Source: Klebsiella oxytoca (lineage in GTDB: Bacteria; Pseudomonadota; Gammaproteobacteria; Enterobacterales; Enterobacteriaceae). From it: DNA of 64,000 bases. The position numbers and the translations under genes are program-made. The notes under the pieces are model-generated. The model ran no database searches and was not told the origin of the DNA. It saw only the letters and a program-made list of their open reading frames with translations. Location of the stretch: positions 2,046,001 through 2,110,000 of the forward strand of contig NZ_CP046115.1 of NCBI RefSeq assembly GCF_009707385.1, written 5' to 3'. Positions 9,895 through 27,294 of the stretch are shown in pieces. The stretch's first letter is position 1, and each line of letters opens with the position of its first letter.

Positions 9895-9912
9895 GTCGTC
9901 AAGGCGCAGTAA

Positions 9913-9928
9913 TGTGATCTATTTCAAT
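9913..9928 (+). promoter_or_regulatory. Possible CRP site before the antiporter gene
   Basis: TGTGA-N6-TCAAT: the left half is a full CRP half-site inside AATGTGATCTA, the right half matches 3 of 5. It lies 11 bp upstream of the LacI-type palindrome. Confidence 0.4.
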
Positions 9929-9938
9929 TTTAACGCGC

Positions 9939-9958
9939 TCATGTAATCGCTTACATGA
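9939..9958. promoter_or_regulatory. LacI-type operator palindrome
   Basis: TCATGTAATCGCTTACATGA: two 8-bp arms in perfect inverted symmetry around TCGC, 18 of 20 positions symmetric with a central CG, as in LacI/GalR-family operators. Lying between the LacI-type gene and the antiporter gene, it is the likely binding site of that regulator. Confidence 0.7.
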
Positions 9959-10034
9959 AGGCAAATTGACGATCACAGTCAGGCAAAAGGGGGTTCTCTA
10001 CTCTGGAACCACCTCACAGACTGGAGTTCTATCT

Positions 10035-11486: not shown

Positions 11487-11498
11487 GAAAGGAACTCG

Positions 11499-12677
11499 AT
11501 GGACTTTAATAGAATTATTGATCGCCACCATACAGGTTCGCTGAAATGGGACTTTATGACGCGCTATTTTGGCGAAGGGGCGAATGAACTGTTGCCGATG
11601 TGGGTTTCTGACTTTGACTTTACCTGCCCGCCAGCGGTCCAGACGGCCTTAATTCAGCGCATTGAGCACGGTATTTTTGGTTACAGCGAACGGCCGCAAA
11701 TTTACTTTGACTCCCTGATTTCATGGTTTTCAACCCGTCATCAGTTGGCGATCAAACAACAGTGGATATGCAGTATAGAAGGGGTAGTTCCGGGATTATC
11801 TCTGCTGGTGCAGATGCTCAGCCGCGCAGGTGAAGGCGTGGTGGTTCAGGGGCCATATTATGGCTCCTTTGCAAAAATCATCTCGCTCAACGACAGACGA
11901 TTGCTGGAAAATCCATTATCTGAGGAGCCCGAAATCGGTTACCGCATGGATCTCGCCCATCTGGAAACGCTATTTCGTACCGAACGCCCGCCGCTAATGA
12001 TTTTATGTAATCCGCATAATCCAACCGGCCGCTGTTGGTCTGCTCAGGAGCTCAGCGAGCTGCTTGCATTGTGCGAAAAGTATGATGTTATTTTAATTTC
12101 CGATGAAATCTGGGCCGATTTATTGCTGCCGGGAGAAAATTTCACCTCGGTTTTACATCTGGGAGAGCGCTGGCACTCACGCGTCATATCGGCCACCTCT
12201 GCCAGTAAAACCTTCGGTTTATCTACTTTACGTATTGCGAATTTTCTTATTCCGGCATCCGCGCTGCGCGACCAATTTTTACGCCGCCTCGATGCTCATG
12301 GGCTGGATGTTTTTAATGCTCTGTCAATCGAGTCGAGCATTGCGGCGTGGCAAAATGGCGCTCCCTGGCTGGATGAACTGCTTGATTACCTGGCGGAGAA
12401 TCGACGTTGGTTTATTCAACAGGCTGCTGAATACCTCCCGTGGGCCAGGATTATCCCTGCCCAGGGAACGTATCTGTTATGGATAGATTGCAAACGGCTG
12501 GCGCTGAGTGATGAGCAGCTCAAATGGGTTATGGTTGACGTTGCTGGTATTGCGCCTTCAATGGGGAATAGCTTTGGTTCGGCCGGCAGCGGATTTATCC
12601 GCCTGAATCTGGGATGTCCCCGTGTATACCTTGAAAAAGCGCTGGAGGGATTGAAACGGATAGCTTTTACCGCTTAA
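11499..12677 (+). CDS. MalY/PatB-family PLP-dependent C-S lyase / aminotransferase
   Basis: A 392-residue fold-type I PLP enzyme. The N-terminus (DRHHTGSLKWDFMTRYFG, LPMWVSDFDF) is characteristic of the MalY/PatB subgroup, cystathionine beta-lyases that release thiols, ammonia and pyruvate from cysteine conjugates. NPHNPTGRCWS and ISDEIWADL are the cofactor-binding motifs. Lys237 in SATSASKTFGLSTLRIAN forms the Schiff base. The GAAAGGAA ribosome binding site lies 12 bp after the antiporter stop. With the LacI-type regulator it resembles a MalI-MalY unit, suggesting an inducible function on a transported sulfur amino acid, which is inference. Confidence 0.88.
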   Translation: MDFNRIIDRHHTGSLKWDFMTRYFGEGANELLPMWVSDFDFTCPPAVQTALIQRIEHGIFGYSERPQIYFDSLISWFSTRHQLAIKQQWICSIEGVVPGLSLLVQMLSRAGEGVVVQGPYYGSFAKIISLNDRRLLENPLSEEPEIGYRMDLAHLETLFRTERPPLMILCNPHNPTGRCWSAQELSELLALCEKYDVILISDEIWADLLLPGENFTSVLHLGERWHSRVISATSASKTFGLSTLRIANFLIPASALRDQFLRRLDAHGLDVFNALSIESSIAAWQNGAPWLDELLDYLAENRRWFIQQAAEYLPWARIIPAQGTYLLWIDCKRLALSDEQLKWVMVDVAGIAPSMGNSFGSAGSGFIRLNLGCPRVYLEKALEGLKRIAFTA

Positions 12678-12761: not shown

Positions 12762-13688
12762 CTAACGGGTAAATTTGCCAATCCACGGGCTGTTTGTGTC
12801 CTGGGACCACAGCTGCAGCAGCATCTCTCTGAACTTTTCCGCCGCAGGGCTCAGGGTCGTTTCTCTGCGTAGTACGAGTCCCAGCGTGCGACGAATAACG
12901 GGCTCAACCAGCGGGCGACTGACAAGAATGTGATGCTCATCGGTCGGCATTGCCAGGCTTGGGACCACCGCAACGCCAAGGCCAGCCTCAACCATACCGA
13001 GCGATGTCGAGAGATGTCTGACTTCATAAAACCAATTTGGCTTCCAGTTTACCGTCTCCAGCGCTTGATCTATCAAGGAGCGGTTGCCGCTTGAACGCCT
13101 TACGCCAATCAGCCTGAAGTTGGCCAAATCTTCCCACAAGATCAGTGATTTCTGCGCCAGTTCGTGGTCTCGTCGGCAGGCTAATACGAATGGCTCGTTG
13201 ACCAGCGGTGAAAAATCAATATTAGGATGTGTGATGTTTATCATATTTATGCCGAAATCTGCGTCGCCGTTTAGTACCGCCTCAAGGCAGTCGCTGGCGC
13301 TGTGTTCGAGGATTCGGATACGGATATTTGGATAGTGATTGTTATAGTCCCTGATGACCGAGGGGAGAAAATAGAATGCGGCGGTGGGCAGACAGGACAA
13401 GGTGACAACGCCGCTCTGATGGGTTGCCATTTCTTTAATACTCAGAATCGAACTTTCATAAAAATCTATTAAATTCTTGGCCTTAGGTAAAAATTCCCTG
13501 CCTACGGCCGTCAGCTTAATGTTTCGGGTCGTTCGTTCAAACAGCGTGGCTCCCAGCTGCTCTTCCAGTTTTTTTATGCGACGAGTTAAGGCCGGCTGGG
13601 ATGTGTGAAGAAAATGTGAAGCTCTTGTGAAGCATCCGATTTCTGCAATTTTAACAAAAGCTTGTATACCCTGAAGGTCCTGCAGCAT
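12762..13688 (-). CDS. LysR-family regulator of the tricarboxylate cluster
   Basis: A 308-residue LTTR with N-terminal winged HTH (FTRASHFLHTSQPALTRRIK, LFERTTRNIKLTAVGREFL) and a C-terminal substrate-binding domain with the usual GLGVAVVPS loop. It is divergent from the PrpF-family gene, and the 159-bp space between them contains a perfect ATAC-N7-GTAT palindrome, the classical LTTR box. It should sense the imported acid or a pathway intermediate and activate the rightward operon. The layout LysR / PrpF-like / transporter / aconitase is also found in E. coli as ybhD-ybhH-ybhI-ybhJ, without the citrate lyase genes. Confidence 0.88.
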   Translation of the reverse strand: MLQDLQGIQAFVKIAEIGCFTRASHFLHTSQPALTRRIKKLEEQLGATLFERTTRNIKLTAVGREFLPKAKNLIDFYESSILSIKEMATHQSGVVTLSCLPTAAFYFLPSVIRDYNNHYPNIRIRILEHSASDCLEAVLNGDADFGINMINITHPNIDFSPLVNEPFVLACRRDHELAQKSLILWEDLANFRLIGVRRSSGNRSLIDQALETVNWKPNWFYEVRHLSTSLGMVEAGLGVAVVPSLAMPTDEHHILVSRPLVEPVIRRTLGLVLRRETTLSPAAEKFREMLLQLWSQDTNSPWIGKFTR

Positions 13689-13740: not shown

Positions 13741-13763
13741 ATTAATACGCAAAACGTATTAAT
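13741..13763. promoter_or_regulatory. LysR-type regulator binding box
   Basis: Two 9-bp arms, ATTAATACG and CGTATTAAT, in perfect inverted symmetry around CAAAA. The core is ATAC-N7-GTAT, which fits the T-N11-A rule for LTTR sites. It lies 85 bp upstream of the PrpF-family ATG and 53 bp from the divergent regulator start. Confidence 0.8.
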
Positions 13764-13847
13764 GGTTGGTTTTTTTGGCATTAGCATTATTTATCCTGCT
13801 GTGGAATCCTGACTTCGCTCTTATCAATGCGTGAAACGAGAAAGAAA

Positions 13848-14936
13848 ATGTTAAAGATTCCTTGTGTACTGATGCGTGGTGGTACTTCGAAAGGCCCGGT
13901 GATACTAGCCAGTGATTTACCGACGAAAATTGAGGAACGCGATGCCGTACTGCTGGGCCTGATGGGCGCGGGCCATGAACTTGAAATTGATGGTATTGGC
14001 GGCGGTAGTCCTCAAACCAGTAAGGTTGCTATCGTTAGCCCATCAGATAGTCCTGATGCTGATGTCGACTATTTGTTTGTGCAGGTAATGGTTAACGAGC
14101 GCCGTGTCGATACCACTCCTAACTGCGGTAATATGCTCTGCGCGGTAGGGCCCTTTGCGATTGAAAAAGGCCTTGTTAAGGCACAAAGCCCGGTGACGAC
14201 CGTGCGTATCCGTAACCTGAATACCGGTACGCTGGTTGATGCCGAAGTACAAACGCCGAACTTTTATGTCAATTATGAAGGCGATACGCACATTGACGGT
14301 GTTCCCGGTTATGCCGCGCCGATTGGCCTGACCTTTCTCAACTCGGCGGGTTGTAAAACGGGGAAACTGCTGCCAACCGGTAACGTGACAGATGTGATTG
14401 ATGACGTGGAAGTTACCTGCATCGATATGGCTATGCCGATGGTGCTGATTAAGGCGGAGCTGATGGGTAAAACAGGGGATGAATCACCGGCGGAGCTGGA
14501 TGCGGACAGAGTATTCATGGATAAACTGGAAGCCATCCGGCGTAAGGCCGGGGCGAAAATGGGGCTGGGAGACGTTGCCGATAAAGTTATTCCTAAACCG
14601 GTGCTGCTGAGCAAACCCGGCGCAGGAGGAACCATCAGAGTCCGCTATTTTATGCCTCATACCTGTCATAAATCGCTGGCGATTACCGGCTCTATCGGTA
14701 TATCAACCGCAACGATAATTGAAGGATCGGTTGCTTATAAAATTGTGGCCGATCGGCCTAAGGCTCCTTATACCAATATTATTAATATTGAACATCCAAG
14801 CGGAAAAATTTCGGTATCTTTGCTCAAAGAGGGGAATGATATTGAGAAAACACGCGCCGCGGTAATTAGAACTTCCCGAAAACTATTCGAAGGTACCGTA
14901 TGTGTCCCGGATTATGCTTTTGCGGAGGAATTATAA
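13848..14936 (+). CDS. PrpF-family isomerase (YbhH-like; aconitate/oxalomesaconate isomerase candidate)
   Basis: A 362-residue member of the PrpF family, which moves double bonds in unsaturated tricarboxylates. Known members are 2-methylaconitate isomerase PrpF, 4-oxalomesaconate tautomerase GalD and the fungal aconitate isomerase Adi1. Motifs are LMRGGTSKGP at the N-terminus, EIDGIGGGSPQTSKVAI with Lys59, and TTPNCGNMLCAVGPFA with Cys93, where the family's proposed catalytic Lys and Cys lie. The N-terminus is close to E. coli YbhH. The ATG at 13848 follows GAGAAAG; the frame also opens at 13827. As first gene of the operon containing a second aconitase B and citrate lyase, a cis/trans-aconitate isomerase role is attractive, but the exact substrate is inferred. 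Confidence 0.85.
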   Translation: MLKIPCVLMRGGTSKGPVILASDLPTKIEERDAVLLGLMGAGHELEIDGIGGGSPQTSKVAIVSPSDSPDADVDYLFVQVMVNERRVDTTPNCGNMLCAVGPFAIEKGLVKAQSPVTTVRIRNLNTGTLVDAEVQTPNFYVNYEGDTHIDGVPGYAAPIGLTFLNSAGCKTGKLLPTGNVTDVIDDVEVTCIDMAMPMVLIKAELMGKTGDESPAELDADRVFMDKLEAIRRKAGAKMGLGDVADKVIPKPVLLSKPGAGGTIRVRYFMPHTCHKSLAITGSIGISTATIIEGSVAYKIVADRPKAPYTNIINIEHPSGKISVSLLKEGNDIEKTRAAVIRTSRKLFEGTVCVPDYAFAEEL

Positions 14937-15030
14937 ATATTTTATATCATTAAAGCTGTGAAAAATTGATGTCCTCTAGCTTGTAATCGCTATACAACTC
15001 TGTACCTAAAAAAATAATGTCGAGGATTTT

Positions 15031-16269
15031 ATGGCTATAACCCATACTAAAGATAATCAGCTAAACTCTGCTCCCGTCAAAGTCGGTAATTATATTCGGA
15101 TTATCCTGGCTCTGGCTTTATCCGGCCTTGCCGAGTTAGCCTCTCTGTTTTTTATTCAACCTCTGTTACCCGTTCTTGCAGTCGAATATGATGTACCGGT
15201 CAGCCAGGTTAGTATCATTCTCTCCGCAGAAACGGCGCTGCTGGCAGTCGGCTTATTATTCACCGGGACGCTATCCGATCATTACGGAAGAAAAAAATTA
15301 ATTATTGTTTCGCTGTTATTAGGCGGACTGCTGACAATGCTCTGTCCACTAGTCGAATCCTGGGCAATGCTGGTGGCTTTACGTGCGGTTATTGGCCTTG
15401 CTCTCAGCGGGATTGCCGCTGCTGCAACCGCCTATATCAGTGAAGAAGTCGCTCCGGTTGTCGCTGGGGTAGTCACCGGATACTTTGTCTTTGGTAATTC
15501 TATGGGCGGGATGTCCGGGCGTATTATTGCCAGCCAGCTGATCGACCATATCTCGATAAACACCATATTCTATGGTTTTGCCGCCAGCCTGATTTTAGTC
15601 GCTGTGCTGGTTAACTTTTTACTCCCGGCATCCCGGAACTTTAAACCAACGCAAAATCTTAACGTTCTTCGTGTGGTAAAAGGTGCAGCATCCCATTTTA
15701 AAAACAAAAAGCTGGCGCTGGCGTTTGTAATTAGCTTCATCATCTTTGGTGTGTTTACTTCTCTCTATAATTACCTGGCTTTCTTCCTCAAAGGAGAACC
15801 CTTCCATATTTCACCAGCGAACGCAGGCCTGCTGTCCTTTAGCTTTGCCTTAAGCTTCTTCACTGCGCCTCAGGCGGGTCGCCTTTCGGCAAAATACGGC
15901 AGTATGAACGTTCTGCGTATACTGTTCGTGTTAATGGCGGTGGGGATGTTGCTGACTTTAACTTCTAACGTAGTCACATTTATTATCGGTGCGGTCATTT
16001 TTACGGGTTGTTTCTTTGGTTGCCACTCAATTGGATTAAGTTGGGTGAGTAAAAATGCCGCACATGCACGTGGTCAGGCCGTCGCGCTGTATCTGTTCTT
16101 CTACTACATGGGTGGTTCAGTTATCGGTTTCGTTAACGGATTTGTTTTCCACTCGATGGGCTGGCAGGGTATGACGGGATTCATTATCGCGCTACTGGCT
16201 GTAGGTGCGGGTGTCGCAACGTATTTATCTTCCAGCGAAAGAAAAGCAATGGTACCGGTAGAGTCTTAA
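15031..16269 (+). CDS. MFS transporter (YnfM-like, 12 TM)
   Basis: A 412-residue major facilitator with about 12 membrane segments. The cytoplasmic loop 2-3 signature is GTLSDHYGRKKLIIVS, and a second-half counterpart is QAGRLSAKYGSMNVLRI. Overall it resembles the YnfM-type MFS branch. It lies 94 bp after the PrpF-family gene and 80 bp before the FAH-family gene, in the same direction. It may import the growth substrate or export a product such as acetate or a surplus acid; the operon has a second transporter of the DASS family. Substrate is not determinable from sequence. Confidence 0.85.
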   Translation: MAITHTKDNQLNSAPVKVGNYIRIILALALSGLAELASLFFIQPLLPVLAVEYDVPVSQVSIILSAETALLAVGLLFTGTLSDHYGRKKLIIVSLLLGGLLTMLCPLVESWAMLVALRAVIGLALSGIAAAATAYISEEVAPVVAGVVTGYFVFGNSMGGMSGRIIASQLIDHISINTIFYGFAASLILVAVLVNFLLPASRNFKPTQNLNVLRVVKGAASHFKNKKLALAFVISFIIFGVFTSLYNYLAFFLKGEPFHISPANAGLLSFSFALSFFTAPQAGRLSAKYGSMNVLRILFVLMAVGMLLTLTSNVVTFIIGAVIFTGCFFGCHSIGLSWVSKNAAHARGQAVALYLFFYYMGGSVIGFVNGFVFHSMGWQGMTGFIIALLAVGAGVATYLSSSERKAMVPVES

Positions 16270-16293
16270 GCCAATTAGTGTCTAAGAAAATAA

Positions 16294-16318
16294 CTCACGT
16301 CATTCCCAATGGCGTGAG
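16294..16318 (+). terminator. Intra-operon hairpin without T-run
   Basis: An 11-bp stem (CTCACGTCATT with AATGGCGTGAG, one G-T pair) with a CCC loop between the MFS and FAH genes. No U-run follows, so it is more likely an mRNA-stabilising or partial attenuation hairpin than a full terminator. Confidence 0.45.
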
Positions 16319-16349
16319 GAAAGAAATTAAATGTTAGTAAGGTGTCATC

Positions 16350-17213
16350 ATGAAATTAGCAAGCTATGTTCATCATGGTCGTAAAAGTTATGGGATTTTG
16401 ACTGATGCAGGCATTATCGACCTGGGTGGGAAAATTGGTCATCAATATAGTACGCTGAAAGATCTACTGCAGTGGGGCGCCATCGATATTGCCGCACAAT
16501 ATATTAATTATCCGGTCGATATCATGTTAGCCGATATTACTTTTTTACCGGTTATTGAAAACCCAGGAAAGATTTTCTGCGTCGGTATGAATTATGCGGA
16601 AAAAAGAAAAGAATTTTCAGAAACCAACGATGCACCGACCCTGTTCGTACGTTTTCCTGACTCGCAAACGGGCCACGCAACGCCGATATTAAAACCTGCC
16701 TTATCCGATGAGTTTGATTACGAAGGCGAACTGGCCGTTATTATTGGCAAACCGGGTATGAATATCGACGCCAGCGCTGCTCTGAGCCATGTTGCCGGCT
16801 ATAGCTGCTACATGGATGGCTCGGTGCGCGACTGGCAGCATGCGTGGTTTACCGCGGGTAAAAACTGGCGTCAGACGGGGGCATTTGGTCCCTGCCTGAC
16901 TACCGTTGACGAAATACCCGATCCACACCGCTTGTCTATTCAAACTTATTTGAACGGCATTATGGTTCAGAACGATTCGACGGCCAGCATGATCCATAAA
17001 GTCGCCGATCTGATTAGCTATATCAGTACTTTCACTTCGCTGAGCGCTGGCGATGTCATTATTACCGGCTCCCCAGGCGGTGTCGGTAAAAAAAGAACAC
17101 CGCCTCTCTTTATGCACGAAGGCGATCGGGTCGAGGTGGTTATCGAAAAGATTGGGCATCTCATGAATACGATTGTGGAATCAAAACCTCAGCACGAATT
17201 GCAGATGTCATAG
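16350..17213 (+). CDS. FAH-family protein (acylpyruvase / oxaloacetate tautomerase-decarboxylase candidate)
   Basis: A 287-residue protein of the fumarylacetoacetate hydrolase family. The C-terminal catalytic domain starts at KIFCVGMNYAEKRKEF. It holds the metal ligands of FDYEGELAVIIG (Glu, Glu) and the Asp of YSCYMDGSVRDWQ, and ends with DVIITGSPGGVG. Family members hydrolyse acylpyruvates, and the FAHD1/FAHD2-type relatives decarboxylate or tautomerise oxaloacetate. Citrate lyase, encoded directly downstream, makes oxaloacetate, so an oxaloacetate tautomerase or decarboxylase role fits best here, but this is inference. An acylpyruvase acting on a related keto acid is the alternative. Confidence 0.82.
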   Translation: MKLASYVHHGRKSYGILTDAGIIDLGGKIGHQYSTLKDLLQWGAIDIAAQYINYPVDIMLADITFLPVIENPGKIFCVGMNYAEKRKEFSETNDAPTLFVRFPDSQTGHATPILKPALSDEFDYEGELAVIIGKPGMNIDASAALSHVAGYSCYMDGSVRDWQHAWFTAGKNWRQTGAFGPCLTTVDEIPDPHRLSIQTYLNGIMVQNDSTASMIHKVADLISYISTFTSLSAGDVIITGSPGGVGKKRTPPLFMHEGDRVEVVIEKIGHLMNTIVESKPQHELQMS

Positions 17214-17273
17214 TCTCCGCGGACCCGGACAAGATTATTTGACGCCCATTCAGGTATGGGCAGGAGAAACAAG

Positions 17274-18347
17274 ATGTACACCGACCAAACGCTAGAGTTC
17301 GAGAAGGTTGAAACTAGCAACGGTACCTGCAGAAACGAAATAGCTCTCTTTCTGCAGAATAATGGATTAGGCATTGACGATGACATTGAACAGTTCGTTG
17401 TCGCACGTTGCAATCGGCAGCTGGTAGCCTGCGCCGGGCTTGCGGGTAATACGTTAAAATGCATTGCGGTTGCGAGAGAATGGCGCGGGACAGCCTTAGG
17501 CCTGAAAATAATTCATGAAGCGGAGCTACAGGCTATTCAGAACGGTGAACATCAGCTATTTCTCCTGACTTGTCCGGATAATGTTCGATCATTCCAGGGA
17601 TGCGGATTTTATCCTTTGGTCACCCTCGATAATCAGGCAACCCTGATGGAGAATTCGCCCGTCGGCATCCATCGTTACTGCCGGCAGCTGCGGAGCCAGC
17701 ATTTGGTAACGGCCGAGAATGTTGGCGGGATTGTGATGAATGCAAATCCTTTTACATTGGGGCATCAGTATCTCATTGAGCAGGCCGCAAAAGCATGCGA
17801 CTGGCTGCATGTCTTTGTCGTCGAAGAGGATCTGTCCACGTTTTCTTTTCGGCAGCGGTTTGCCATGGTTCAGGATGGGTCGCGGCATATACCTAATATC
17901 ACGGTTCATCCCGGCTCAAAATATATTATTTCCCGCGGAACGTTTCCCGGTTACTTTCTCAAAGAAAAACAGATCATTAATGAGGTGTATGCTGCAATAG
18001 ATTTGATTATGTTCCGGCGTTACATCGCACCGGCCTTAAATATTAATCAGCGTTTTGTAGGTACGGAGCCATTCTGTAAAGTGACCGCGCAATATAATTG
18101 CGCAATGCATCACTGGCTGGAGGATGAGATGACAATACCGGCGGCCAGTATCAAGGTTAACGAGATTCAGAGGATGACCGATAGTAATAATTTACCGATA
18201 TCCGCCTCGGCGGTCAGGCGCTTATTAAGTAAAGAAGATCTTCCGGCGGTTAAATGTATGGTGCCAGCCAGTACCATGCCTTACTTATATACATGGTTAT
18301 CAGCGAATCAATCTAAGCAGCCAGATTTAGATATGGCCGATGCTTAA
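17274..18347 (+). CDS. citC: Citrate lyase ligase (acetate:CoA-like SH-ligase) CitC
   Basis: A 357-residue [citrate (pro-3S)-lyase] ligase. It activates citrate lyase by ATP-dependent acetylation of the thiol on the acyl carrier subunit. The N-terminal third is a GNAT-like domain and the remainder a nucleotidyltransferase domain with NANPFTLGHQYLIEQA (HxGH-type ATP site) and the ISASAVRRLL signature near the C-terminus. The ATG at 17274 has AGGAG at good distance; an in-frame ATG at 17256 would contain that site. It opens the cit block in the order C-D-E-F-X-G, the order of the E. coli anaerobic citrate cluster. It is followed 24 bp later by citD. Confidence 0.93.
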   Translation: MYTDQTLEFEKVETSNGTCRNEIALFLQNNGLGIDDDIEQFVVARCNRQLVACAGLAGNTLKCIAVAREWRGTALGLKIIHEAELQAIQNGEHQLFLLTCPDNVRSFQGCGFYPLVTLDNQATLMENSPVGIHRYCRQLRSQHLVTAENVGGIVMNANPFTLGHQYLIEQAAKACDWLHVFVVEEDLSTFSFRQRFAMVQDGSRHIPNITVHPGSKYIISRGTFPGYFLKEKQIINEVYAAIDLIMFRRYIAPALNINQRFVGTEPFCKVTAQYNCAMHHWLEDEMTIPAASIKVNEIQRMTDSNNLPISASAVRRLLSKEDLPAVKCMVPASTMPYLYTWLSANQSKQPDLDMADA

Positions 18348-18371
18348 TAAATAATTGTTCAGGAAGTTTAT

Positions 18372-18662
18372 ATGAAAATATTAAAAGCGGCAATTGCCGG
18401 GACGCTGGAATCCAGCGACCTGGTGGTCAAAGTCAGCCCATATGATGATGGACTCGATATCACTATCAACAGCGAAGTGTACAAACAATTTGGTGAACAG
18501 ATTACTGCGGTGGTGAATGAAACTCTTGCCGCATTAAATATCACACAGGGCCAGATTATTGTTGAGGATAAGGGTGCGCTGGATTGTGTTATCCGCGCCA
18601 GAATTCAGGCTGCGATTCTCCGGGGAACGGACAGCAACGAAATTGCGTGGGAAAAATTATGA
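18372..18662 (+). CDS. citD: Citrate lyase acyl carrier (gamma) subunit CitD
   Basis: A 96-residue acyl carrier protein of citrate lyase. The conserved [11 protein letters not shown] segment carries Ser14, the attachment site of the phosphoribosyl-dephospho-CoA prosthetic group, and [18 protein letters not shown] is the family's C-terminal signature. It carries the acetyl or citryl thioester between the alpha and beta subunits. Its stop overlaps the start of citE by 4 nt, pointing to coupled translation. Confidence 0.95.
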
Positions 18663-19537
18663 TGAAGAAATTACGTCGCAGTATGCTTTTTTTGCCGGGT
18701 TCAAGCGCCGCCATGCTGTCCACGGCGTTTATTTATAAACCCGACTCAATTATGTTTGACCTGGAAGATGCGGTCTCCTTAAAAGAGAAAGATAGTGCAC
18801 GGCTGCTGGTTTTTCATGCTCTACAGCATCCTATGTATAAAGATATCGAAACTGTTGTCAGGATTAATCCGCTGAGTACACCGTTTGGCTTAAAAGATCT
18901 CGAAGCGGCAGTGCGCGCCGGCGTGGATGTTATCCGTTTACCCAAAACCGATACCCCGGAAGATATTTATCAGCTTGAGCGTGAAATTGTCCGTATTGAA
19001 GAGAGCTGCGGTCGGCCGGTTGGATCTACACAGCTAATGGCGGCAATTGAGTCGGCGGTGGGCGTCATTAACGCCGTCGCTATCGCCAGGTCATCTGAAC
19101 GCCTGATGGGTATTGCGCTGGCGGCTTTCGATTACGTAATGGATATGCAAACGGAACGCGGAGACGGTACCGAACTATTTTATGCGCGCTGTGCGGTATT
19201 ACACGCGGCCCGCGGGGCTGGTATTGATGCGTTCGATGTGGTGTATGCCGACATTAATGATGAAGCAGGCTTTTTAAAAGAAGTGGATTTGATTAAACGT
19301 ATGGGCTTTAACGGCAAATCGCTTATTAATCCACGGCAGATAGAGATTTTACATAATGCCTATGCGCCCACCCAGGAAGAAGTTGATTACGCAGAGCGTG
19401 TTATTGCCGCGGCTGAAGAAGGAGAGCGCAGCGGACTTGGGGTGATTTCACTGAACGGCAAAATGATCGACGCGCCGATCATCAACCATGCCCGGGTGGT
19501 TATTGAACGTAAAAATGCCTCCGGCATTCGTCAGTAA
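18659..19537 (+). CDS. citE: Citrate (citryl-ACP) lyase beta subunit CitE
   Basis: A 292-residue HpcH/HpaI-type TIM-barrel lyase that splits citryl-ACP into acetyl-ACP and oxaloacetate. Motifs are [15 protein letters not shown] at the start, [20 protein letters not shown] with a metal-binding Asp/Glu, [12 protein letters not shown], and [22 protein letters not shown]. The start ATG overlaps citD by 4 nt, with a second ATG directly after it. Neither this sequence nor its neighbours allow citrate to be told from citramalate or methylcitrate as substrate; citramalate lyase subunits are homologous. Confidence 0.93.
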
Positions 19538-19570
19538 TCTCTATTCAGCCTTTAGCAACAGGATTTAACG

Positions 19571-21091
19571 ATGAGTCTATTAACTGAAGCACTGCATAAT
19601 ATATCCGGCGTCCAGCATAAATATGAGGTATTTTCCGGCGCAAATATCCATACGCCTTATCTTGCGGATACCCGGCAAAAATACCAGCGCAAGCTTTTCG
19701 ACACCCTGGATGATGTCTTATCGCGCTGCGATTTACGTGATGGTATGACCGTCTCATTTCATCACGCCTTCCGCGAGGGAGATAAAGTTATTAACTACGT
19801 TATGGCTAAGCTGGCGGAAAAAGGCTTACGAGGGCTGACGCTGGCTTCAAGCTCTCTGATGACCTGCAATGCTCCGCTGATTGAGCATATTAAACAAGGC
19901 GTTATTAGCAAAATTTATACCTCCGGGATGCGCGGTGAATTAGCAGATGCTATTTCACACGGCCTGATGGAGGAGCCGGTGCAGATTCATTCGCACGGCG
20001 GTAGAGTTAATTTGATTGAAAAGGGTGAGATTAATATCGATGTCGCTTTTTTAGCCGTCTCCTGCTGCGATGAATATGGCAATGCCAGCGGCAGCGGCGG
20101 TAAATCCCGGTGCGGCTCGCTCGGCTACGCCATGGTTGATGCAAAATATGCCAAAAAGGTTGTTTTGCTAACGGAAAGCATTGAGCCGTTTCCCTATATG
20201 CCTGCCAGCATTATTCAGGATCAGGTCGATTATATTGTCAAAATCGACAGCGTTGGCGACCCGGCTAAAATCAGCGTCGGCGCCGCACGGGTAACCAGTA
20301 ACCCGCGCGAATTGATGATCGCGCGCTCCGCGGCGGACGTCATTGAGCACTCCGGCTATTTTCGCGACGGCTTTTCGTTGCAAACGGGTTCAGGAGCCGC
20401 CTCTACCGCCTGCACGCGATTTCTGGAATCGCGCATGAGGAAGCACAATATTGTCGCCAGATTTGCCTTAGGCGGCATTACCGGCAGCATCGTGGATCTG
20501 CATGAAAAAGGGCTCATTACTAAGCTGCTGGATACCCAAAGTTTTGATGGCGCGGCGGGAGATTCGCTGGCGAAAAACCCGAACCACGTTGAAATCTCGA
20601 CCAGCGTTTACGCGAATCCTGCCGCTAAAGCTGCCTGCTGCGATCGGGTTGATGTCGTCATCTTAAGCGCGCTGGAAATTGATACGGATTTTAACGTCAA
20701 CGTACTAACCGGTTCCGACGGCGTGATGCGCGGCGCATCCGGCGGGCATTGCGATGTCGCCGCGGCCGCAAATTTAACTATCGTAGTCGCTCCGCTGATC
20801 CGCAGCCGTATTCCTACCGTCGTCAGGCACGTCACCACGCGCGTGACTCCGGGAGAGAGCATCGATGTGCTGGTTACCGACCACGGTATTGCCGTGAATC
20901 CCGCTCGCCCGGAAGTCAAAGAGAGACTGACTGCGGCTGGTTTACCGGTCGTTGATATCGAGGCGCTTTATCAGAAATCGCTGGTGATTTCTGGCGAACC
21001 CAAACCGATTGAGTTTACTTCGCGCATTGTTGGCGTAGTGCGCTACCGCGATGGCAGCGTCATTGATGTGGTAAGGCAGGTAAAAGAATGA
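19571..21091 (+). CDS. citF: Citrate lyase alpha subunit (acetyl-ACP:citrate ACP-transferase) CitF
   Basis: A 506-residue CoA-transferase-like subunit that exchanges acetate for citrate on the acyl carrier protein. Recognisable parts are TVSFHHAFREGDKVINYVM near residue 60, GKSRCGSLGYAMVDAKYAKKVV, SLQTGSGAASTACTRFLESRM and DFNVNVLTGSDGVMRGASGGH, and the length fits other CitF proteins. It lies 33 bp after citE and overlaps citX by 4 nt, so D-E-F-X-G form one translational block. Confidence 0.95.
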   Translation: MSLLTEALHNISGVQHKYEVFSGANIHTPYLADTRQKYQRKLFDTLDDVLSRCDLRDGMTVSFHHAFREGDKVINYVMAKLAEKGLRGLTLASSSLMTCNAPLIEHIKQGVISKIYTSGMRGELADAISHGLMEEPVQIHSHGGRVNLIEKGEINIDVAFLAVSCCDEYGNASGSGGKSRCGSLGYAMVDAKYAKKVVLLTESIEPFPYMPASIIQDQVDYIVKIDSVGDPAKISVGAARVTSNPRELMIARSAADVIEHSGYFRDGFSLQTGSGAASTACTRFLESRMRKHNIVARFALGGITGSIVDLHEKGLITKLLDTQSFDGAAGDSLAKNPNHVEISTSVYANPAAKAACCDRVDVVILSALEIDTDFNVNVLTGSDGVMRGASGGHCDVAAAANLTIVVAPLIRSRIPTVVRHVTTRVTPGESIDVLVTDHGIAVNPARPEVKERLTAAGLPVVDIEALYQKSLVISGEPKPIEFTSRIVGVVRYRDGSVIDVVRQVKE

Positions 21092-21636
21092 TCGACGAAA
21101 CGACAACAGCCTCATGCGTACACCTCACCCTTGAGGAAGTGCTGAAAGCCAGAGAAGCGCGGGCGAGCGTGCAGCAAGCCTGGCTGCTCCGGTACGGACA
21201 GCCGATGGTATCAACAACGCTCGTTTGGCCCGGTGAGGTAAAAGATACGCCGCTCGCCCGGCAGGTGATGGCAGAGGCGACGGAAGCGCTTAGCCAGCTG
21301 CTGCGCAAGCACCGATGGGCTGTCTCCAGGCACGAAGTCCGTTTTCAGCCCACCGGACCTGAAGCGTTCTGGTCCATCCCGGCGCCAGCCTGGATGATAA
21401 AGCACGTTACGGCGCATCTTGAAGACAACCATCCGCTCGGGCGTCTGTGGGATATCGATGTTTTTTGCCCAAAATCCGGATTAATAACGCGCAGCGCGAT
21501 CCGTCAGCCGATGCGCAGATGCTTCATTTGCAGTGAACCAGCCCACGTCTGCTCCCGGATACGCCGCCATTCGCAGAATGAACTTGCGCAAGTGATTGAG
21601 GATTTAACCTATGACTACTTTAGCGGTCAGCGTTGA
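21088..21636 (+). CDS. citX: Apo-citrate lyase phosphoribosyl-dephospho-CoA transferase CitX
   Basis: A 182-residue holo-ACP synthase for citrate lyase. It transfers 2'-(5''-triphosphoribosyl)-3'-dephospho-CoA to the serine of CitD. The ending RRCFICSEPAHVCSRIRRHS, with its Cys and His residues, is the family hallmark, and DIDVFCP is conserved in the middle. It starts within the citF stop (ATGA) and overlaps citG by 26 nt. CitX and CitG are separate proteins here, as in E. coli and Klebsiella, not fused. Confidence 0.93.
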   Translation: MIDETTTASCVHLTLEEVLKAREARASVQQAWLLRYGQPMVSTTLVWPGEVKDTPLARQVMAEATEALSQLLRKHRWAVSRHEVRFQPTGPEAFWSIPAPAWMIKHVTAHLEDNHPLGRLWDIDVFCPKSGLITRSAIRQPMRRCFICSEPAHVCSRIRRHSQNELAQVIEDLTYDYFSGQR

Positions 21637-22483
21637 ACAGGTTGAGCAGAGACAAAGCATTGCCTGGCTGGCCGCCGAGGCGATGTATCGGGAAGTTAAA
21701 TTAACGCCTAAGCCCGGTCTGGTCGATGGTGAGAATAATGGCGCGCATCGGGATATGAACATCGCGCTATTTATGGCCAGTATTAGCGCCGTCTCGCCCT
21801 GGTTTCCTCGCTTTTTTGAACAGGGAAAAGCCACGGCGGGTTTGCCTGCTCCCCAGACGTTATTAGCGATAAGGCCTATTGGGCTGGCGTGCGAACAGGC
21901 GATGTTCAAAGCCACGGGCGGTATAAACACCCACAAAGGAGGCATTTTTTCCCTCGGAATTCTGTGCGCTGCCGCAGGACGCCTTGTTAAAGCAAACCAG
22001 ATGCTCAGCCAGCGTAATCTGTGCCGGGAAACCAAAGCGATGTGTGCGGGGCTGGTTCACCAGGAACTGACCAAAAATAGCTCCGCCAAAACGAAAGGCG
22101 AGCATATTTTTCAGAACCATGGGCTTAGCGGAGCGCGGGGCGAGGCTGAGAACGGCTTTTATACCGTCAGGCAGTTCGGGCTGCCGCAGTGGCAAAAATC
22201 GCTGCGGGAAGGGGGATCGGAGCAGGATGCGCTACTCAGGATGCTGCTGGCACTGATGGCATTTAATCCCGATACCAATGTGGTTTCCCGGGGCGGGCTA
22301 CGCGGCCTGAAATATGTGCAGCGCTATGCAAAAAGAGTGCTGAAGATAAAAAACTTATCGGGTGAGAGGCTCAGAAAAGCGCTGGTAAACATGGATAAGG
22401 CTCTTATTGAAAAAAATATTAGTCCTGGCGGCAGTGCGGATCTCCTTGCCGTTGGCTGGGTACTTTCCCATTACCCGGTCTGA
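21611..22483 (+). CDS. citG: Triphosphoribosyl-dephospho-CoA synthase CitG
   Basis: A 290-residue enzyme that condenses ATP with dephospho-CoA to form the prosthetic group precursor for citrate lyase. Motifs are AMYREVKLTPKPGLVDGENNGAHRDM, the metal-binding TGGINTHKGGIFSLGILCAAAGRL and PDTNVVSRGGLRGL, and the ending NISPGGSADLLAVGW. It overlaps citX and is followed 32 bp later by a small hydrolase gene. With CitX and CitC present, the cluster contains everything needed to mature its own citrate lyase. Confidence 0.94.
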   Translation: MTTLAVSVEQVEQRQSIAWLAAEAMYREVKLTPKPGLVDGENNGAHRDMNIALFMASISAVSPWFPRFFEQGKATAGLPAPQTLLAIRPIGLACEQAMFKATGGINTHKGGIFSLGILCAAAGRLVKANQMLSQRNLCRETKAMCAGLVHQELTKNSSAKTKGEHIFQNHGLSGARGEAENGFYTVRQFGLPQWQKSLREGGSEQDALLRMLLALMAFNPDTNVVSRGGLRGLKYVQRYAKRVLKIKNLSGERLRKALVNMDKALIEKNISPGGSADLLAVGWVLSHYPV

Positions 22484-22515
22484 CAGACGGTACTGAACGA
22501 GGAGAGGAAGACTTT

Positions 22516-23082
22516 ATGACTACGCAACGTCTGGAACAGCTAAGTGAGATGTTCACGATTATTCTGGTGCCGGGCCTGAGAGACAGTGATGAGCATCACT
22601 GGCAAAGTTGCTGGAGTCGTCGTTTTCCTTTTTGGAAACGGATAAGCCAGCGAAACTGGCTGGAACCTGACATTGATGCCTGGATATCCGCTATTCGTCG
22701 GGAGCTGGCTACCTGTCAACTCCCGGCCGTGCTGGTCGGCCACAGCTTTGGGGCGCTTGCATCGTGTCGTCTGATTCAGACGCAAAAGATGAATATAGCG
22801 GGCGTCGTCATGGTGGCTCCCGCAGAGCCATCGCTCTTCGAACTGGAAGAAGCGGTACTTCCGGAGAAATTGCCAACGCCCAGCCTTATGTTTGTGAGCC
22901 GCAACGATCCGTTAATGTCTTTTAAACGTGCCCGGTTCTGGGCTGAATGCTGGGGAGGTCATTTAATTGATCTTGGCGACGCCGGTCATATTAATGCTGA
23001 GTCTGGATTCGGCGACTGGAATTATGGTCTGGAACAGCTGGCTGAATTTTGTGAAGGCTTGCCGCAATATATTAATAAATGA
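22516..23082 (+). CDS. RBBP9/YdeN-family alpha/beta serine hydrolase
   Basis: A 188-residue small alpha/beta hydrolase. The oxyanion strand is IILVPGLRDSDEHHWQSCW, the nucleophile elbow VLVGHSFGALASC has Ser at GHSFG, and NDPLMSF and GDAGHIN supply the acid and His of the triad. This is the RBBP9/YdeN layout. A GGAGAGGAAG ribosome binding site precedes the ATG at 22516. Members have no firm physiological role. Its place between citG and the aconitase gene suggests a task in the pathway, such as thioester hydrolysis (a deacetylase that switches citrate lyase off) or cleanup of a lactone. That is speculation. Confidence 0.78.
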   Translation: MTTQRLEQLSEMFTIILVPGLRDSDEHHWQSCWSRRFPFWKRISQRNWLEPDIDAWISAIRRELATCQLPAVLVGHSFGALASCRLIQTQKMNIAGVVMVAPAEPSLFELEEAVLPEKLPTPSLMFVSRNDPLMSFKRARFWAECWGGHLIDLGDAGHINAESGFGDWNYGLEQLAEFCEGLPQYINK

Positions 23083-23151
23083 TTTTTAGCAACCGATTAT
23101 CTCTATTACATGAACAACTTTCAGATAAATAATATCTGAGCCGGAGAGCAT

Positions 23152-25752
23152 ATGTTAGAAGCTTATAATAAGCATGTGGCAGAACGTGCTGCGAAAAATA
23201 TTCCGCCGAAGCCGTTAAGCGCTGAACAAACGCAAGAGTTAATTTCATTATTAATCAGCAACGAGTGCGATGATAAAAACACTCTTGTACAGCTGTTGAC
23301 GCATCGCGTACCGCCGGGGGTGGATCCAGCGGCGAAGATTAAAGCGGATTTCCTCTATCAGCAGGTTAAAGAAGAACACCCGGCGCCGGTTATTGCCCCT
23401 CAACGGGCAATTGAACTGCTGGGCACGATGCAGGGCGGTTATAATGTTCAACCGCTGATTGACTTACTGGACGATCCCCGTTGGGCGAACAGCGCCGCGG
23501 AGCAATTAAGCACCACGCTGCTTATTTTTGAAAAATTTAAGGATGTTGAAGAAAAAGCAAAGCAAGGAAATGTCCAGGCGCAGAAAGTTATCCAGTCATG
23601 GGCCAACGCCGAGTGGTTTTTACGACGTCCGGAGCTGCCTGAGAAAATCACGCTGAAAGTATTTAAAGTGACAGGGGAAACCAATACCGATGATTTATCG
23701 CCGGCGCCCGAAGCGTGGTCACGCCCGGATATTCCTCTGCATGCGCTTTCCATGCTGTGTAATCCGCGCGACGGCGTAAGCCCGGATGAACCCGGAAGCC
23801 GAGGGCCAATCCAGCAGCTAGAGCAGCTGAAGGAAGAGGGCTATCCGCTGGTTTACGTCGGGGATGTCGTCGGCACCGGCAGTTCACGAAAATCGGCAAC
23901 TAACTCTATTTTATGGCATCTTGGCAACGATATCCCCTGGGTGCCGAATAAGCGAAGCGGCGGCTTCGTTGTTGGCGGAAATATTGCCCCCATCTTTTTC
24001 AATACTCTGGAGGATTCCGGCGCGCTGCCGCTAGAAATGGATGTCTCCGGGCTATCAACGGGAATGCTGATTGACCTCTATCCTTATCAGGGCGAAATTC
24101 GCGAAAACCACAGCCAGCGGCATATCACCTCGTTTTCCTTGAAAACGGACGTGCTGCTTGATGAAGTTCGCGCCGGAGGACGTATTCCGCTCATCATTGG
24201 CAGGAGTCTGACGGCGAGAGCGCGCGAATCGCTGGATCTGGCGCCCTCCGAGGTCTTCCGCCAGCCAAAAGCGCCGTCACCTTCGGTGGCAGGTTTTACG
24301 CTGGCGCAGAAAATAGTGGGCAGAGCCTGCGGCGTAGCCGGGATCCGTCCCGGACAGTACTGCGAGCCGCGGGTGACCACCGTTGGCTCTCAGGACACTA
24401 CCGGAGGAATGACGCGCGATGAGCTGACCGATCTGGCCTGCCTGAGCTTTTCAGCGGATCTGGTTATGCAATCTTTTTGTCACACCTCGGCCTATCCGAA
24501 ACCGGTTGATGTGAAGCTACATGAAACGTTGCCTGAGTTCATCAGCCGCCGGAACGGCGTGGCGCTGAAGCCGGGTGATGGCATCATCCACTCCTGGCTA
24601 AACCGTATGCTTATTCCTGATACCGTGGGGACCGGAGCGGATTCTCATACCCGTTTTCCGCTCGGCATCTCTTTCCCCGGCGGCTCCGGGCTGGTGGCTT
24701 TTGCGGCGGCGACGGGCATTATGCCGCTGGATATGCCGGAGTCGGTGCTGGTTCGTTTTAAGGGCGAAATGCAAAAAGGGATCACCCTGCGCGATCTGGT
24801 CCACGCCATCCCGCTCTACGCTATCAAGCAGGGTTTGCTGACGGTGGAGAAAAAAAATAAGGTCAATATTTTCTCCGGCCGCATCCTCGAAATCGAAGGG
24901 CTCGGAATGCTGAAAGTAGAGCAGGCTTTTGAGCTGGCCGACGCCTCCGCCGAACGCTCTGCCGCGGCATGCGTGCTACGTCTTGAAGAAGAGAACGTTG
25001 CCGAATACCTGCGCTCCAACGTTACTCTGTTACGCTGGATGATAAATCAGGGTTATGAGAATGCGGCGACGCTGGAGCGGCGGATTGCTGAAATTGAGGC
25101 GTGGCTGGAAAATCCGTCTCTGCTGGCTGCCGATGAGAACGCCGAATATGCCGCGGTCATTGAGATCGATCTGGCGGAAATAGGCGAACCAATCGTATGC
25201 GCGCCGAACGATCCGGATGATGCCCGCCTGCTGTCGGAAGTCGCCCGTTCGCCGATAGATGAAGTGTTTATTGGCTCCTGTATGACCAATATTGGCCATT
25301 TCCGGGCAGCCGGTAAAATTATTGCCGAGGCCACTGAGATACCCGTACGGCTGTGGCTGGCTCCGCCGACCAAAATGGATGCGCGTCAGCTTTCCAGCGA
25401 AGGCTATTACAATAAGTTTATTAAGGCGGGAGCCAGAATCGAACCAGCCGGCTGCTCTTTATGTATGGGAAATCAGGCCCGGGTCCGCCAGGGAAGTTCG
25501 GTTGTTTCAACCTCCACGCGTAACTTCCCGAATCGTCTGGGCACCGATGCGAAAGTCTTTCTGGCATCGGCGGAGCTCAGCGCGGTGGCGGCTATGATAG
25601 GCAAGATGCCGACCGTTGAACAATATTTCTGGCATATGGATAAAATTAATGAAACGCGTGACGATACTTATCGTTACCTTAACTTTGATCGGCTGCCTGA
25701 ATATCAGTCAACAAACGAGCATGAAAATATTATTCAAAAATTCTCTGGCTAA
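23152..25752 (+). CDS. Second aconitase B (AcnB paralogue)
   Basis: An 866-residue bifunctional-type aconitate hydratase collinear over its whole length with E. coli AcnB (865 residues). It has the N-terminal HEAT-like domain ([28 protein letters not shown]), the swivel domain ([20 protein letters not shown]) and the catalytic domains. The [4Fe-4S] ligands are in place: Cys710 (GSCMTNIGH), Cys768 and Cys771 (GCSLCMGN). Serine and Arg active-site loops ([20 protein letters not shown]) are kept. It converts citrate, cis-aconitate and isocitrate into each other. It is visibly diverged from the housekeeping AcnB, chiefly at the C-terminal end, and sits in a catabolic operon. It should feed citrate to the adjoining lyase. 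Confidence 0.93.
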
Positions 25753-25796
25753 TTCCTTAATACATTAATTATTAACAGTGAATAGCTCACTGGTTT

Positions 25797-25828
25797 AGCA
25801 GAAGCTTCGGAAGAAAGAGGCTTCTGCT
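25797..25828 (+). terminator. Hairpin between acnB paralogue and DASS transporter
   Basis: A 9-bp perfect stem (AGCAGAAGC with GCTTCTGCT) and 14-nt loop, no long T-run. It is probably an attenuator that lowers transporter expression relative to the enzymes, or an mRNA-protecting hairpin. Confidence 0.5.
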
Positions 25829-25860
25829 TATAACGACACGGATCGTAGCTGAGGTGAAGC

Positions 25861-27294
25861 ATGTTTAAATCAAAACAAATAAAAATAGCGGTGCTTATTT
25901 TTATTATTGTATTAGCGATAATAATTCCTCCCCCTGAAGGATTAACGAAAGAAGCATGGATACTGGCTGGTATCTATCTGGCCTCAATTATAGGACTGGT
26001 AAGTAAACCTTTTCCTGAGCCCGTTATTATGCTGTCGGCGGTAGGCTTGTCATGCTTAACGGTAGCAAGGTTTGCTGACTCCCCCGTCAAGTCCATGGAT
26101 GTCCTGAGCGGCTATGCCTCAGGAACGACATGGCTGGTATTTAGCGCGTTTACTTTAAGCGCCGCTTTTGTCACCACCGGCTTAGGCAAGCGCCTGGCCT
26201 ACTGGTTTATTTTAAAGTTTGGCGGCACGACCCTGCGGCTGGGGTATGTTACGGCGCTGCTGGATTTATTGCTTTCACCGGCTACGCCTTCTAATACGGC
26301 ACGCGCCGGAGGCGTGGTATTCCCGATTATTAACAGCATTGCCCTGGTATTAGGTTCAACGCCAAAAGAGAGTCCGTGTAAAGCCGGGCGCTATCTTATG
26401 GTTAATATATATATGGTGACGAAAACAACCAGCTATATGTTTTTAACCGCATTTGCCGGCAATGCCTTAGCATTGCAGTTAATTTCCGATATTTTTCATA
26501 TTCATATAAGCTGGGTGGGCTGGGCGCTGGCGGGAGTGCCGCTCGGGCTGCTGATGTTAGCCATTATTCCTTATGTCACATATAAAATAGTCCGCCCGCA
26601 ATTAAAAGAAATAGACAATGCAACCATTGCGAATGCGGGTCTTAATGAACTTGGCCCTATCAGTTCCAAAGAGAAAGGGTTAATAGTCGTATTCATCGCT
26701 GCGCTATTAGGTTGGATATTCTCTCGTCAGCTGGGGCTTAATGAATCCTCGGTTGCGGTAATCGCGATGGTAGGCGCGCTGCTGGCAAATATCATTTGCT
26801 GGAATGATGTTCTGCAAAATAAGGGCGGCTGGAATACATTAATCTGGTACGGCGGTATTATTGGATTGAGTGCGACCTTAAGCAAAGAAGGCTTCTTCAA
26901 ATGGCTTGCGGCCTTTATGTCTGAGCGTCTGGATTTCCTCGGCGCCGGTAACAGTACCATCGTGATTATTGTTTTTATAAGCATTATCGTACGCTACTTG
27001 TTCGCCTCAGGCGGTGCTTACGTGGCAGCCATGGTTCCGGTCTTTGCCACCGTAGGCCTTGTTACCGGAACTGCGCCTGTGCTGCTAGCGCTCGCTATCC
27101 TGTTTTCTAACTCCTACGGAGGCTGTATCACGCACTACGGCGGTGCCGCCGGGCCGATTATCTTTGCCGCCGGTTATAACGATATTAAATCATGGTGGTT
27201 AACCGGAACCCTTGTGGCCTTATTAACTTTTATTGTGCACATGGTCATTGGCATTCCGTGGTGGGGCTTTTTGATACAACACGGTATGCTCTGA
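25861..27294 (+). CDS. DASS-family di/tricarboxylate transporter (YbhI/CitT-like)
   Basis: A 477-residue membrane protein of the divalent anion:sodium symporter family. There are about 11-13 hydrophobic segments. The first SNT motif is in SPATPSNTARAGGVVFPI; the second-half counterpart is LFSNSYGGCITHYGGAAGP. The family includes CitT (citrate/succinate antiporter), TtdT and E. coli YbhI. GAGGTG precedes the ATG. As last gene of the cluster it is the best candidate for the tricarboxylate importer, perhaps an antiporter exchanging substrate for succinate or acetate. The order PrpF-like, DASS, aconitase also occurs in E. coli ybhH-I-J. Confidence 0.88.
   Translation: MFKSKQIKIAVLIFIIVLAIIIPPPEGLTKEAWILAGIYLASIIGLVSKPFPEPVIMLSAVGLSCLTVARFADSPVKSMDVLSGYASGTTWLVFSAFTLSAAFVTTGLGKRLAYWFILKFGGTTLRLGYVTALLDLLLSPATPSNTARAGGVVFPIINSIALVLGSTPKESPCKAGRYLMVNIYMVTKTTSYMFLTAFAGNALALQLISDIFHIHISWVGWALAGVPLGLLMLAIIPYVTYKIVRPQLKEIDNATIANAGLNELGPISSKEKGLIVVFIAALLGWIFSRQLGLNESSVAVIAMVGALLANIICWNDVLQNKGGWNTLIWYGGIIGLSATLSKEGFFKWLAAFMSERLDFLGAGNSTIVIIVFISIIVRYLFASGGAYVAAMVPVFATVGLVTGTAPVLLALAILFSNSYGGCITHYGGAAGPIIFAAGYNDIKSWWLTGTLVALLTFIVHMVIGIPWWGFLIQHGML

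Follow-up and report, generated by a model that had tools for sequence, protein, structure and literature searches.

A candidate trans-aconitate operon joining a YbhH-type isomerase to citrate lyase in Klebsiella oxytoca

Which compound is broken down by a set of genes that brings a PrpF-family isomerase together with a second aconitase and a complete citrate lyase? Such a set lies in the stretch of Klebsiella oxytoca DNA analyzed here, 64,000 nucleotides of contig NZ_CP046115.1 (positions 2,046,001 to 2,110,000 of assembly GCF_009707385.1), which we call the window and whose coordinates are used below. From 13827 to 27294 open frames for PrpF, a major facilitator superfamily (MFS) transporter, a FAH-family protein, CitC-D-E-F-X-G, a serine hydrolase (SerH), AcnB2 and a DASS transporter follow one another in one direction, with a LysR-type regulator gene divergent from them. 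The genome, 5.39 Mb in one contig, has a canonical AcnB and another citrate lyase locus elsewhere, so that the lyase and the AcnB2 of the cluster are second copies in this strain. Comparison with relatives supports a tricarboxylate operon behind a LysR regulator, as an earlier note on this DNA had proposed, its activity and growth role being predictions from sequence. We consider it fairly probable that the cluster is a LysR-controlled operon for the catabolism of trans-aconitate, an acid common in grasses, and it would probably serve growth in the absence of oxygen as well. The note had admitted trans-aconitate, cis-aconitate or isocitrate as substrates; we narrow this to trans-aconitate, the most economical choice, since growth on citrate, cis-aconitate or isocitrate would not call for an isomerase.

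In the proposed route trans-aconitate would enter through the MFS carrier, the DASS carrier or both, and the PrpF-family enzyme, judging by the chemistry of its family, would convert it to cis-aconitate. AcnB2, whose family is clear and whose direction is predicted, would turn cis-aconitate into citrate. CitDEF, activated by CitC, CitX and CitG, would then split citrate into acetate and oxaloacetate, the families being assigned by curated scores and the activity being presumed from them. The FAH-family enzyme would decarboxylate or tautomerize the oxaloacetate, a role suggested by its place in stand-alone citrate-lyase operons. Finally, the LysR protein would sense trans-aconitate or a close derivative and act at a palindrome at 13741. 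Judged from its genes, the operon is a composite of an aconitate module common to ybhD-H-I and a FAH-CitCDEFXG citrate-fermentation module.

All the genes that the earlier note had named from 13848 to 27294 are open frames and run in one direction behind a LysR box, as it had said, and the 9-bp inverted repeat is present; the serine hydrolase, of RBBP9/YdeN type, had gone unnamed. The regulator (12762..13688, minus strand) is YbhD-like by position, has the Pfam domains LysR_substrate and HTH_1, and is 53-98% identical to PrpF-adjacent proteins of relatives. On the plus strand, the isomerase (13848..14936, in a frame that opens at 13827 and where aligned homologues begin at 13848) is followed by the MFS transporter and proposed importer (15031..16269), which matches Pfam MFS_1 and matches named subfamilies, such as aromatic acid/H+ symporters, weakly. 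The curated NCBIfam cut-offs were passed by CitC, the citrate lyase ligase (17256..18347; TIGR00124, 378 bits, cut-off 262), by the acyl carrier protein CitD (18372..18662; TIGR01608, 110.6 bits, cut-off 63.5), in which Ser14, presumably the attachment serine, is present, and by the beta subunit CitE (about 18659..19537; TIGR01588, 467 bits, cut-off 443) and the alpha subunit CitF (19571..21091; TIGR01584, 742 bits, cut-off 501). They were passed as well by the triphosphoribosyl-dephospho-CoA synthase CitG (21611..22483; TIGR03125, 335 bits, cut-off 272), by AcnB2 (23152..25752; TIGR00117, 1429 bits, cut-off 1287) and by the YbhI-type DASS transporter (25861..27294; TIGR00785, 458 bits, cut-off 199). 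The holo-ACP synthase CitX (21088..21636) passed TIGR03124 (179 bits, cut-off 105) and missed PRK01392 (149 vs 158). The DASS protein is 59-62% identical to those of ybhHI-type loci and 31% identical to the DASS protein in the E. coli-type cit locus L233. The G+C content of the cluster is 0.50, compared with 0.52 upstream and 0.58 downstream.

The arrangement is conserved among relatives. Searching 392 genomes from the family to which the strain belongs for the PrpF clade, at E values no higher than 1e-115, gave 39 places in 37 genomes. Neighborhoods were compared for 38 places and the window, 39 in all, out of 44 loci read as stretches of about 17 kb, some of them shorter; genomes of one genus are not independent in these counts. 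The order PrpF-MFS-FAH-CitC/D/E/F/X/G-AcnB was found in 13 of the 39 places, and a variant, PrpF-CitX-DASS-CitCDEF-CitG-AcnB, in one (L041). LysR-PrpF-DASS-YbhJ occupied 17, and the remainder had DASS and then PrpF (5), LysR-PrpF alone (2) or LysR-PrpF-DASS (1). An AcnB-type hydratase was present in all 14 places with the lyase and in none of the 25 without it, which indicates that the lyase and this hydratase travel together, whereas YbhJ was present in 17 of the 25 places without the lyase and in none of the 14 with it. In view of this conserved gene order we set aside chance assembly of the cluster. SerH and DASS were each found in 10 of the 13 clusters; for DASS, the stretch read at L152 stops short.

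Outside the family, the Celerinatantimonadaceae-type loci L181 and L182 carry the cluster, and CitX, SerH and DASS gave no hits there. In a scan of named genomes, which overlap in part with the 392, at least 80 loci were kept and 27 of these were read; 14 had the cluster up to AcnB. The carriers are Enterobacillus tribolii, Mixta tenebrionis, Enterobacter genomosp. O, Citrobacter werkmanii, Phytobacter diazotrophicus, Enterobacter asburiae, Kosakonia sacchari, Kosakonia arachidis, Pantoea anthophila, Phytobacter ursingii, Kosakonia sp. S29, Raoultella terrigena, Prodigiosinella confusarubida and Celerinatantimonas diazotrophica, and contig ends cut the cluster in three further loci (K. michiganensis, Enterobacter sichuanensis, Dickeya oryzae). 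Many carrier species live on plants or insects. Apart from one 42% match, none of the proteins that border the cluster in the window turned up next to it in six other loci from five genomes, some with short flanks. The island probably occupies different genomic places.

AcnB2 is 69% identical to the genome's own AcnB. Of the genomes searched for AcnB, the 11 that carry the cluster or variant all have a second, canonical AcnB, and the two that lack it (G041, G001) have a single AcnB. In an unrooted tree one branch (99/99) splits the 11 cluster proteins from 13 canonical ones. The Fe-S cysteine motifs, including GSCMTN, are kept in 11 of 11 AcnB2 and 13 of 13 AcnB proteins, and the motifs FCHT, DSHTRFP, NTDDLSP and SQDTTG in all 24. 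STRNFPNR reads STRNFPHR in five of the 11 cluster proteins, one further AcnB motif is altered in one of the 11, and PNKR is altered in one cluster and one canonical protein. The sole fixed difference across the 24 sequences is Ala446 to Ser, beside the FCHT motif, which we take to be part of the active site. Ser446 is found in all 14 named loci that cover the position (19 tried) and, among 120 database matches listed, in 94 of the 96 with at least 74% identity and in none of the 24 below. The idea that this one fixed residue defines AcnB2 is weakened by P0014 and P0020, the two of the 96 close relatives with Ala446; in a wider AcnB set the fixed columns are 256, 286 and 289, and not 446. That Ser446 is tied to tolerance of trans-aconitate would be speculation.

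The lyase block resembles that of known citrate operons. In a CitF tree of 31 rows, 14 cluster proteins and 8 other CitF proteins share one branch (100/100), and the loci of seven of these eight, when read, were all stand-alone carrier-FAH-CitCDEFG(X) operons; the CitF of L041 groups with the E. coli type (91/85). The tree would fit repeated recruitment of the lyase block, conversion between copies, or its retention in stand-alone loci after the rest was lost. A CitF search covered 19 genomes, 17 of them with the cluster or variant; five of the 17 had no other CitF (G009, G373, G590, G035, G460) and the other 12 had at least one further copy. In the window's own genome the other citrate lyase, at a separate location, is of CitS/Oad type by the sizes of its open reading frames. 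The eight stand-alone loci (L236, L237, L239-L244) combine FAH-CitCDEFG(X) with a carrier gene and no isomerase; the carrier has 453-464 amino acids and is 2HCT by Pfam in the one tested.

The FAH-family protein (16350..17213; Pfam FAA_hydrolase), the proposed oxaloacetate decarboxylase or tautomerase, has in its lid a Lys where three solved relatives have His. The lid motif NYxxKRxEF is present in 19 of 19 cluster copies and all eight copies from stand-alone citrate operons, and the Lys in both other copies as well. Because the Lys-lid protein also belongs to those operons, it is probably a citrate-lyase partner, and the proposal that it handles oxaloacetate gains support from the comparison. 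The described activity of FAHD enzymes is chiefly tautomerization of oxaloacetate, with a little decarboxylation (PMC10825186). SerH (22516..23082; Pfam PF06821, 169 bits) has a relative of 47% identity (5125 of L236) directly after CitG in a citrate operon without isomerase, which makes it a speculative candidate for a citrate-lyase deacetylase.

The isomerase belongs to the PrpF family (Pfam PrpF, 409 bits), as had been claimed, and to the YbhH clade within it. E. coli YbhH is 62.4% identical to it and provides its closest PDB match (6otv). In a tree of 47 PrpF-family proteins, the seven GalD-type members group together (96/97), as do four PrpF-type ones of 396 amino acids (100/100), and both groups stand away from the window clade; long branches meet there, and three rows have a few extra residues. 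The catalytic motifs are kept, the Cys motif in 47 of 47 proteins and the TSK motif in 46. Lys73 is required in the PrpF of Shewanella, an enzyme that interconverts cis- and trans-aconitate (PMC5690661). The cut-off passed is that of NF033377, "4-oxalomesaconate tautomerase", and the prpF equivalog cut-off was missed (182 vs 440.55 bits), on which ground we rejected a role in the AcnD/PrpF 2-methylcitrate branch. Three YbhH-clade proteins score 509-523 bits with NF033377 and two of GalD type 534-536, so that the model does not separate the two types.

PrpF-family genes were also seen in other settings. In L136 of P. putida, the only Pseudomonas locus that was read completely, a LysR-PrpF orthologue pair is followed by SDF, CitMHS and OprD-family genes; that genome has two further PrpF-family genes, one of GalD type by the tree. 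On two Rhizobiaceae plasmids (L147 7992-11729, L148 7992-11719) LysR-PrpF occurs together with an ABC importer; in L147 the binding protein of the importer is of NMT1 type. Two Providencia plasmids (L145 14918-17501, L146 18919-21500) have the LysR-PrpF pair (PrpF identity 80-81%) with no adjoining transporter or lyase and with an EexN-family lipoprotein gene after it. For tbrA of B. thuringiensis, on plasmids, no B. thuringiensis row appeared among the 60 best and 60 spread of 332 records. In another genome (L046, 4453-12700) a distant PrpF (37%) and a DASS carrier (59%) come after CitCDEFXG, which may be a separate case of isomerase and lyase having been brought together.

The name of the curated model raises a different reading, in which the isomerase would act as a 4-oxalomesaconate tautomerase (GalD/LigU) and the operon would process a gallate or protocatechuate ring-cleavage product. 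Its score of 517 bits over a cut-off of 440, the rank of LigU structures, second to YbhH in the PDB search, and the weak likeness of the MFS protein to aromatic-acid symporters would all fit. However, the model scores YbhH-clade and GalD-type proteins alike, the GalD-type proteins stand on their own branch, with five of the seven 45-50% identical to the window protein, and the P. putida genome carries both types. In GalD/LigU pathways the neighboring genes provide the enzymes that hydrate the ring-cleavage product and split it by aldol cleavage. In L053 PIG-L and RraA-like genes precede the GalD-type gene, and L052 looks similar by eye (two of seven loci), while no PIG-L or RraA-like gene is among the profile matches of the window cluster. 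With a model that does not discriminate and with the pathway neighbors missing from the cluster, we set this function aside as very unlikely. A different substrate for the operon, be it a further tricarboxylate or an ester (for instance tricarballylate, isocitrate, a methylated aconitate or a hydroxycitrate), with SerH or an unseen step feeding the isomerase, seems improbable to us. SerH is common in the clusters, the family match of the MFS protein does not fix its specificity, and PrpF-family enzymes take more than one allylic acid (PMC5690661). On the other hand, the Pfam hits of the cluster include no TcuA/TcuB-like dehydrogenase, isocitrate falls under the argument of economy already made, and SerH is missing from three of the 13 clusters and has its relative beside CitG in L236, where there is no isomerase. 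We give very little credence to an operon that mainly clears trans-aconitate from the cell or makes it for export. Trans-aconitate is an inhibitor of aconitase and undergoes methylation in E. coli (work cited in PMC13188880), and its production by enterobacterial isolates, taken up below, would fit as well, yet a complete lyase together with the genes that mature it and two transporters suggests breakdown of bulk carbon.

Several observations weigh against a trans-aconitate operon. The TarA homologue of Providencia rettgeri AI-79 reached 0.7% and 0.4% of the activity of TarA, the PrpF-superfamily protein that serves growth on trans-aconitate in Bacillus velezensis, and isolates of P. agglomerans and S. 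marcescens use trans-aconitate without a TarA homologue (PMC11495376). The latter indicate that its use does not require a PrpF-superfamily isomerase, and both count against simple prediction from homology; P. rettgeri can carry the window PrpF clade, and the homologue assayed may or may not belong to that clade. Isolates of Enterobacter, Citrobacter, Pantoea and Providencia produce trans-aconitate (PMC13188880), so that the presence of the isomerase alone does not give the direction. In E. coli, deletion of ybhD raised ybhH, and the phenotype was on L-malate, not aconitate (PMC9068703). Furthermore, the curated model names the isomerase otherwise, the genome's own AcnB and other citrate lyase make AcnB2 and the cluster lyase dispensable in principle, SerH is hard to place in the pathway, and the three clusters that lack SerH lack DASS too.

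Parts of the set are known from other systems. Loci of ybhDHIJ type in relatives share with the window the order of divergent LysR (53-58% identity), PrpF-clade isomerase (58-65%) and DASS (about 60%). The E. coli ybhD-ybhH-ybhI-ybhJ locus is without MFS, FAH and citrate lyase and has YbhJ, an AcnA-type hydratase, in place of AcnB2, and is thus the lyase-free relative that the earlier note had taken it to be. In B. velezensis, TarA, the MFS importer TarB and a LysR-type regulator serve growth on trans-aconitate (PMC11495376). These are matched in the window by family, TarA by description only; there the operon is tarA and tarB only, and cis-aconitate is fed to the tricarboxylic acid cycle (PMC11495376). 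The citW-FAH-citCDEFXG citrate fermentation operons of Enterobacterales share the FAH-CitCDEF(X)G block and a related CitF with the window, and have a citrate carrier gene instead of MFS/DASS and no isomerase or aconitase. Pectobacterium has citW with a citYCDEFXG operon (PMC7843439); we infer citY to be the FAH gene and citW to be present in the stand-alone loci. The AcnD/PrpF branch likewise pairs an isomerase with an aconitase-family hydratase and differs in that the window PrpF falls under the prpF cut-off, the hydratase is of AcnB type and a citrate lyase lies alongside. Acidaminococcus fermentans takes trans-aconitate through citrate and oxaloacetate to pyruvate, the same route as far as oxaloacetate; it is a strict anaerobe with genes at several loci (Table 6 of PMC3035267), and the part of that paper available to us names no PrpF-type isomerase.

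With that route already described, it is the gene set rather than the chemistry that looks new. No description of this combination appeared among the papers listed by the literature searches, several of which were directed at side questions and which left out most subscription journals; the earlier note's remark that it did not recognize the combination as described thus holds for the gene set, which seems undescribed, and not for the chemistry or the enzyme types, which are known. Use of trans-aconitate is on record in several enterobacteria (PMC4179279, PMC10783019, PMC13188880). According to PMC4179279 it is used by Franconibacter, C. malonaticus and C. dublinensis, variably by C. muytjensii, and not by C. 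sakazakii, C. turicensis, C. universalis, C. condimenti or Siccibacter; E. pasteurii uses it too (PMC10783019). A trans-aconitate operon, if confirmed, would give this use a genetic basis, tie enterics that live with plants and insects to a plant acid, and supply ybhDHIJ-type loci, along with many proteins annotated YbhH or 4-oxalomesaconate tautomerase, with a function. For enzymology it would offer a dedicated aconitase and a FAH subfamily still to be assigned. A more far-reaching version, which we regard as doubtful, would see a complete trans-aconitate fermentation operon in facultative enterics. AcnB2, with Ser446 beside FCHT, would work under high concentrations of the aconitase inhibitor trans-aconitate, the Lys-lid FAH protein would stand in for the OadGAB pump as a soluble oxaloacetate decarboxylase of a new kind, and SerH would be a citrate-lyase deacetylase switching the lyase off in air.

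The putative LysR operator (13741..13763, no strand assigned) is a perfect 9-bp inverted repeat with a 5-bp spacer, ATTAATACG-CAAAA-CGTATTAAT. When the intergenic regions of 26 loci were aligned it recurred, with changes, at the matching position in enterobacterial clusters and one Providencia plasmid, and more weakly in Pseudomonas. A degenerate pattern derived from these same sites, with at most three mismatches allowed, has a chance expectation of 0.02 per window. The exact site occurs once in the genome, with two more sites at three mismatches, and a control pattern gave one match. Adjoining the cluster, at 8884-12677, are genes for a LacI-type regulator, an NhaC-type antiporter and a PatB-type C-S lyase, the last of which was found in two of 20 genomes of the genus, its own genome included.

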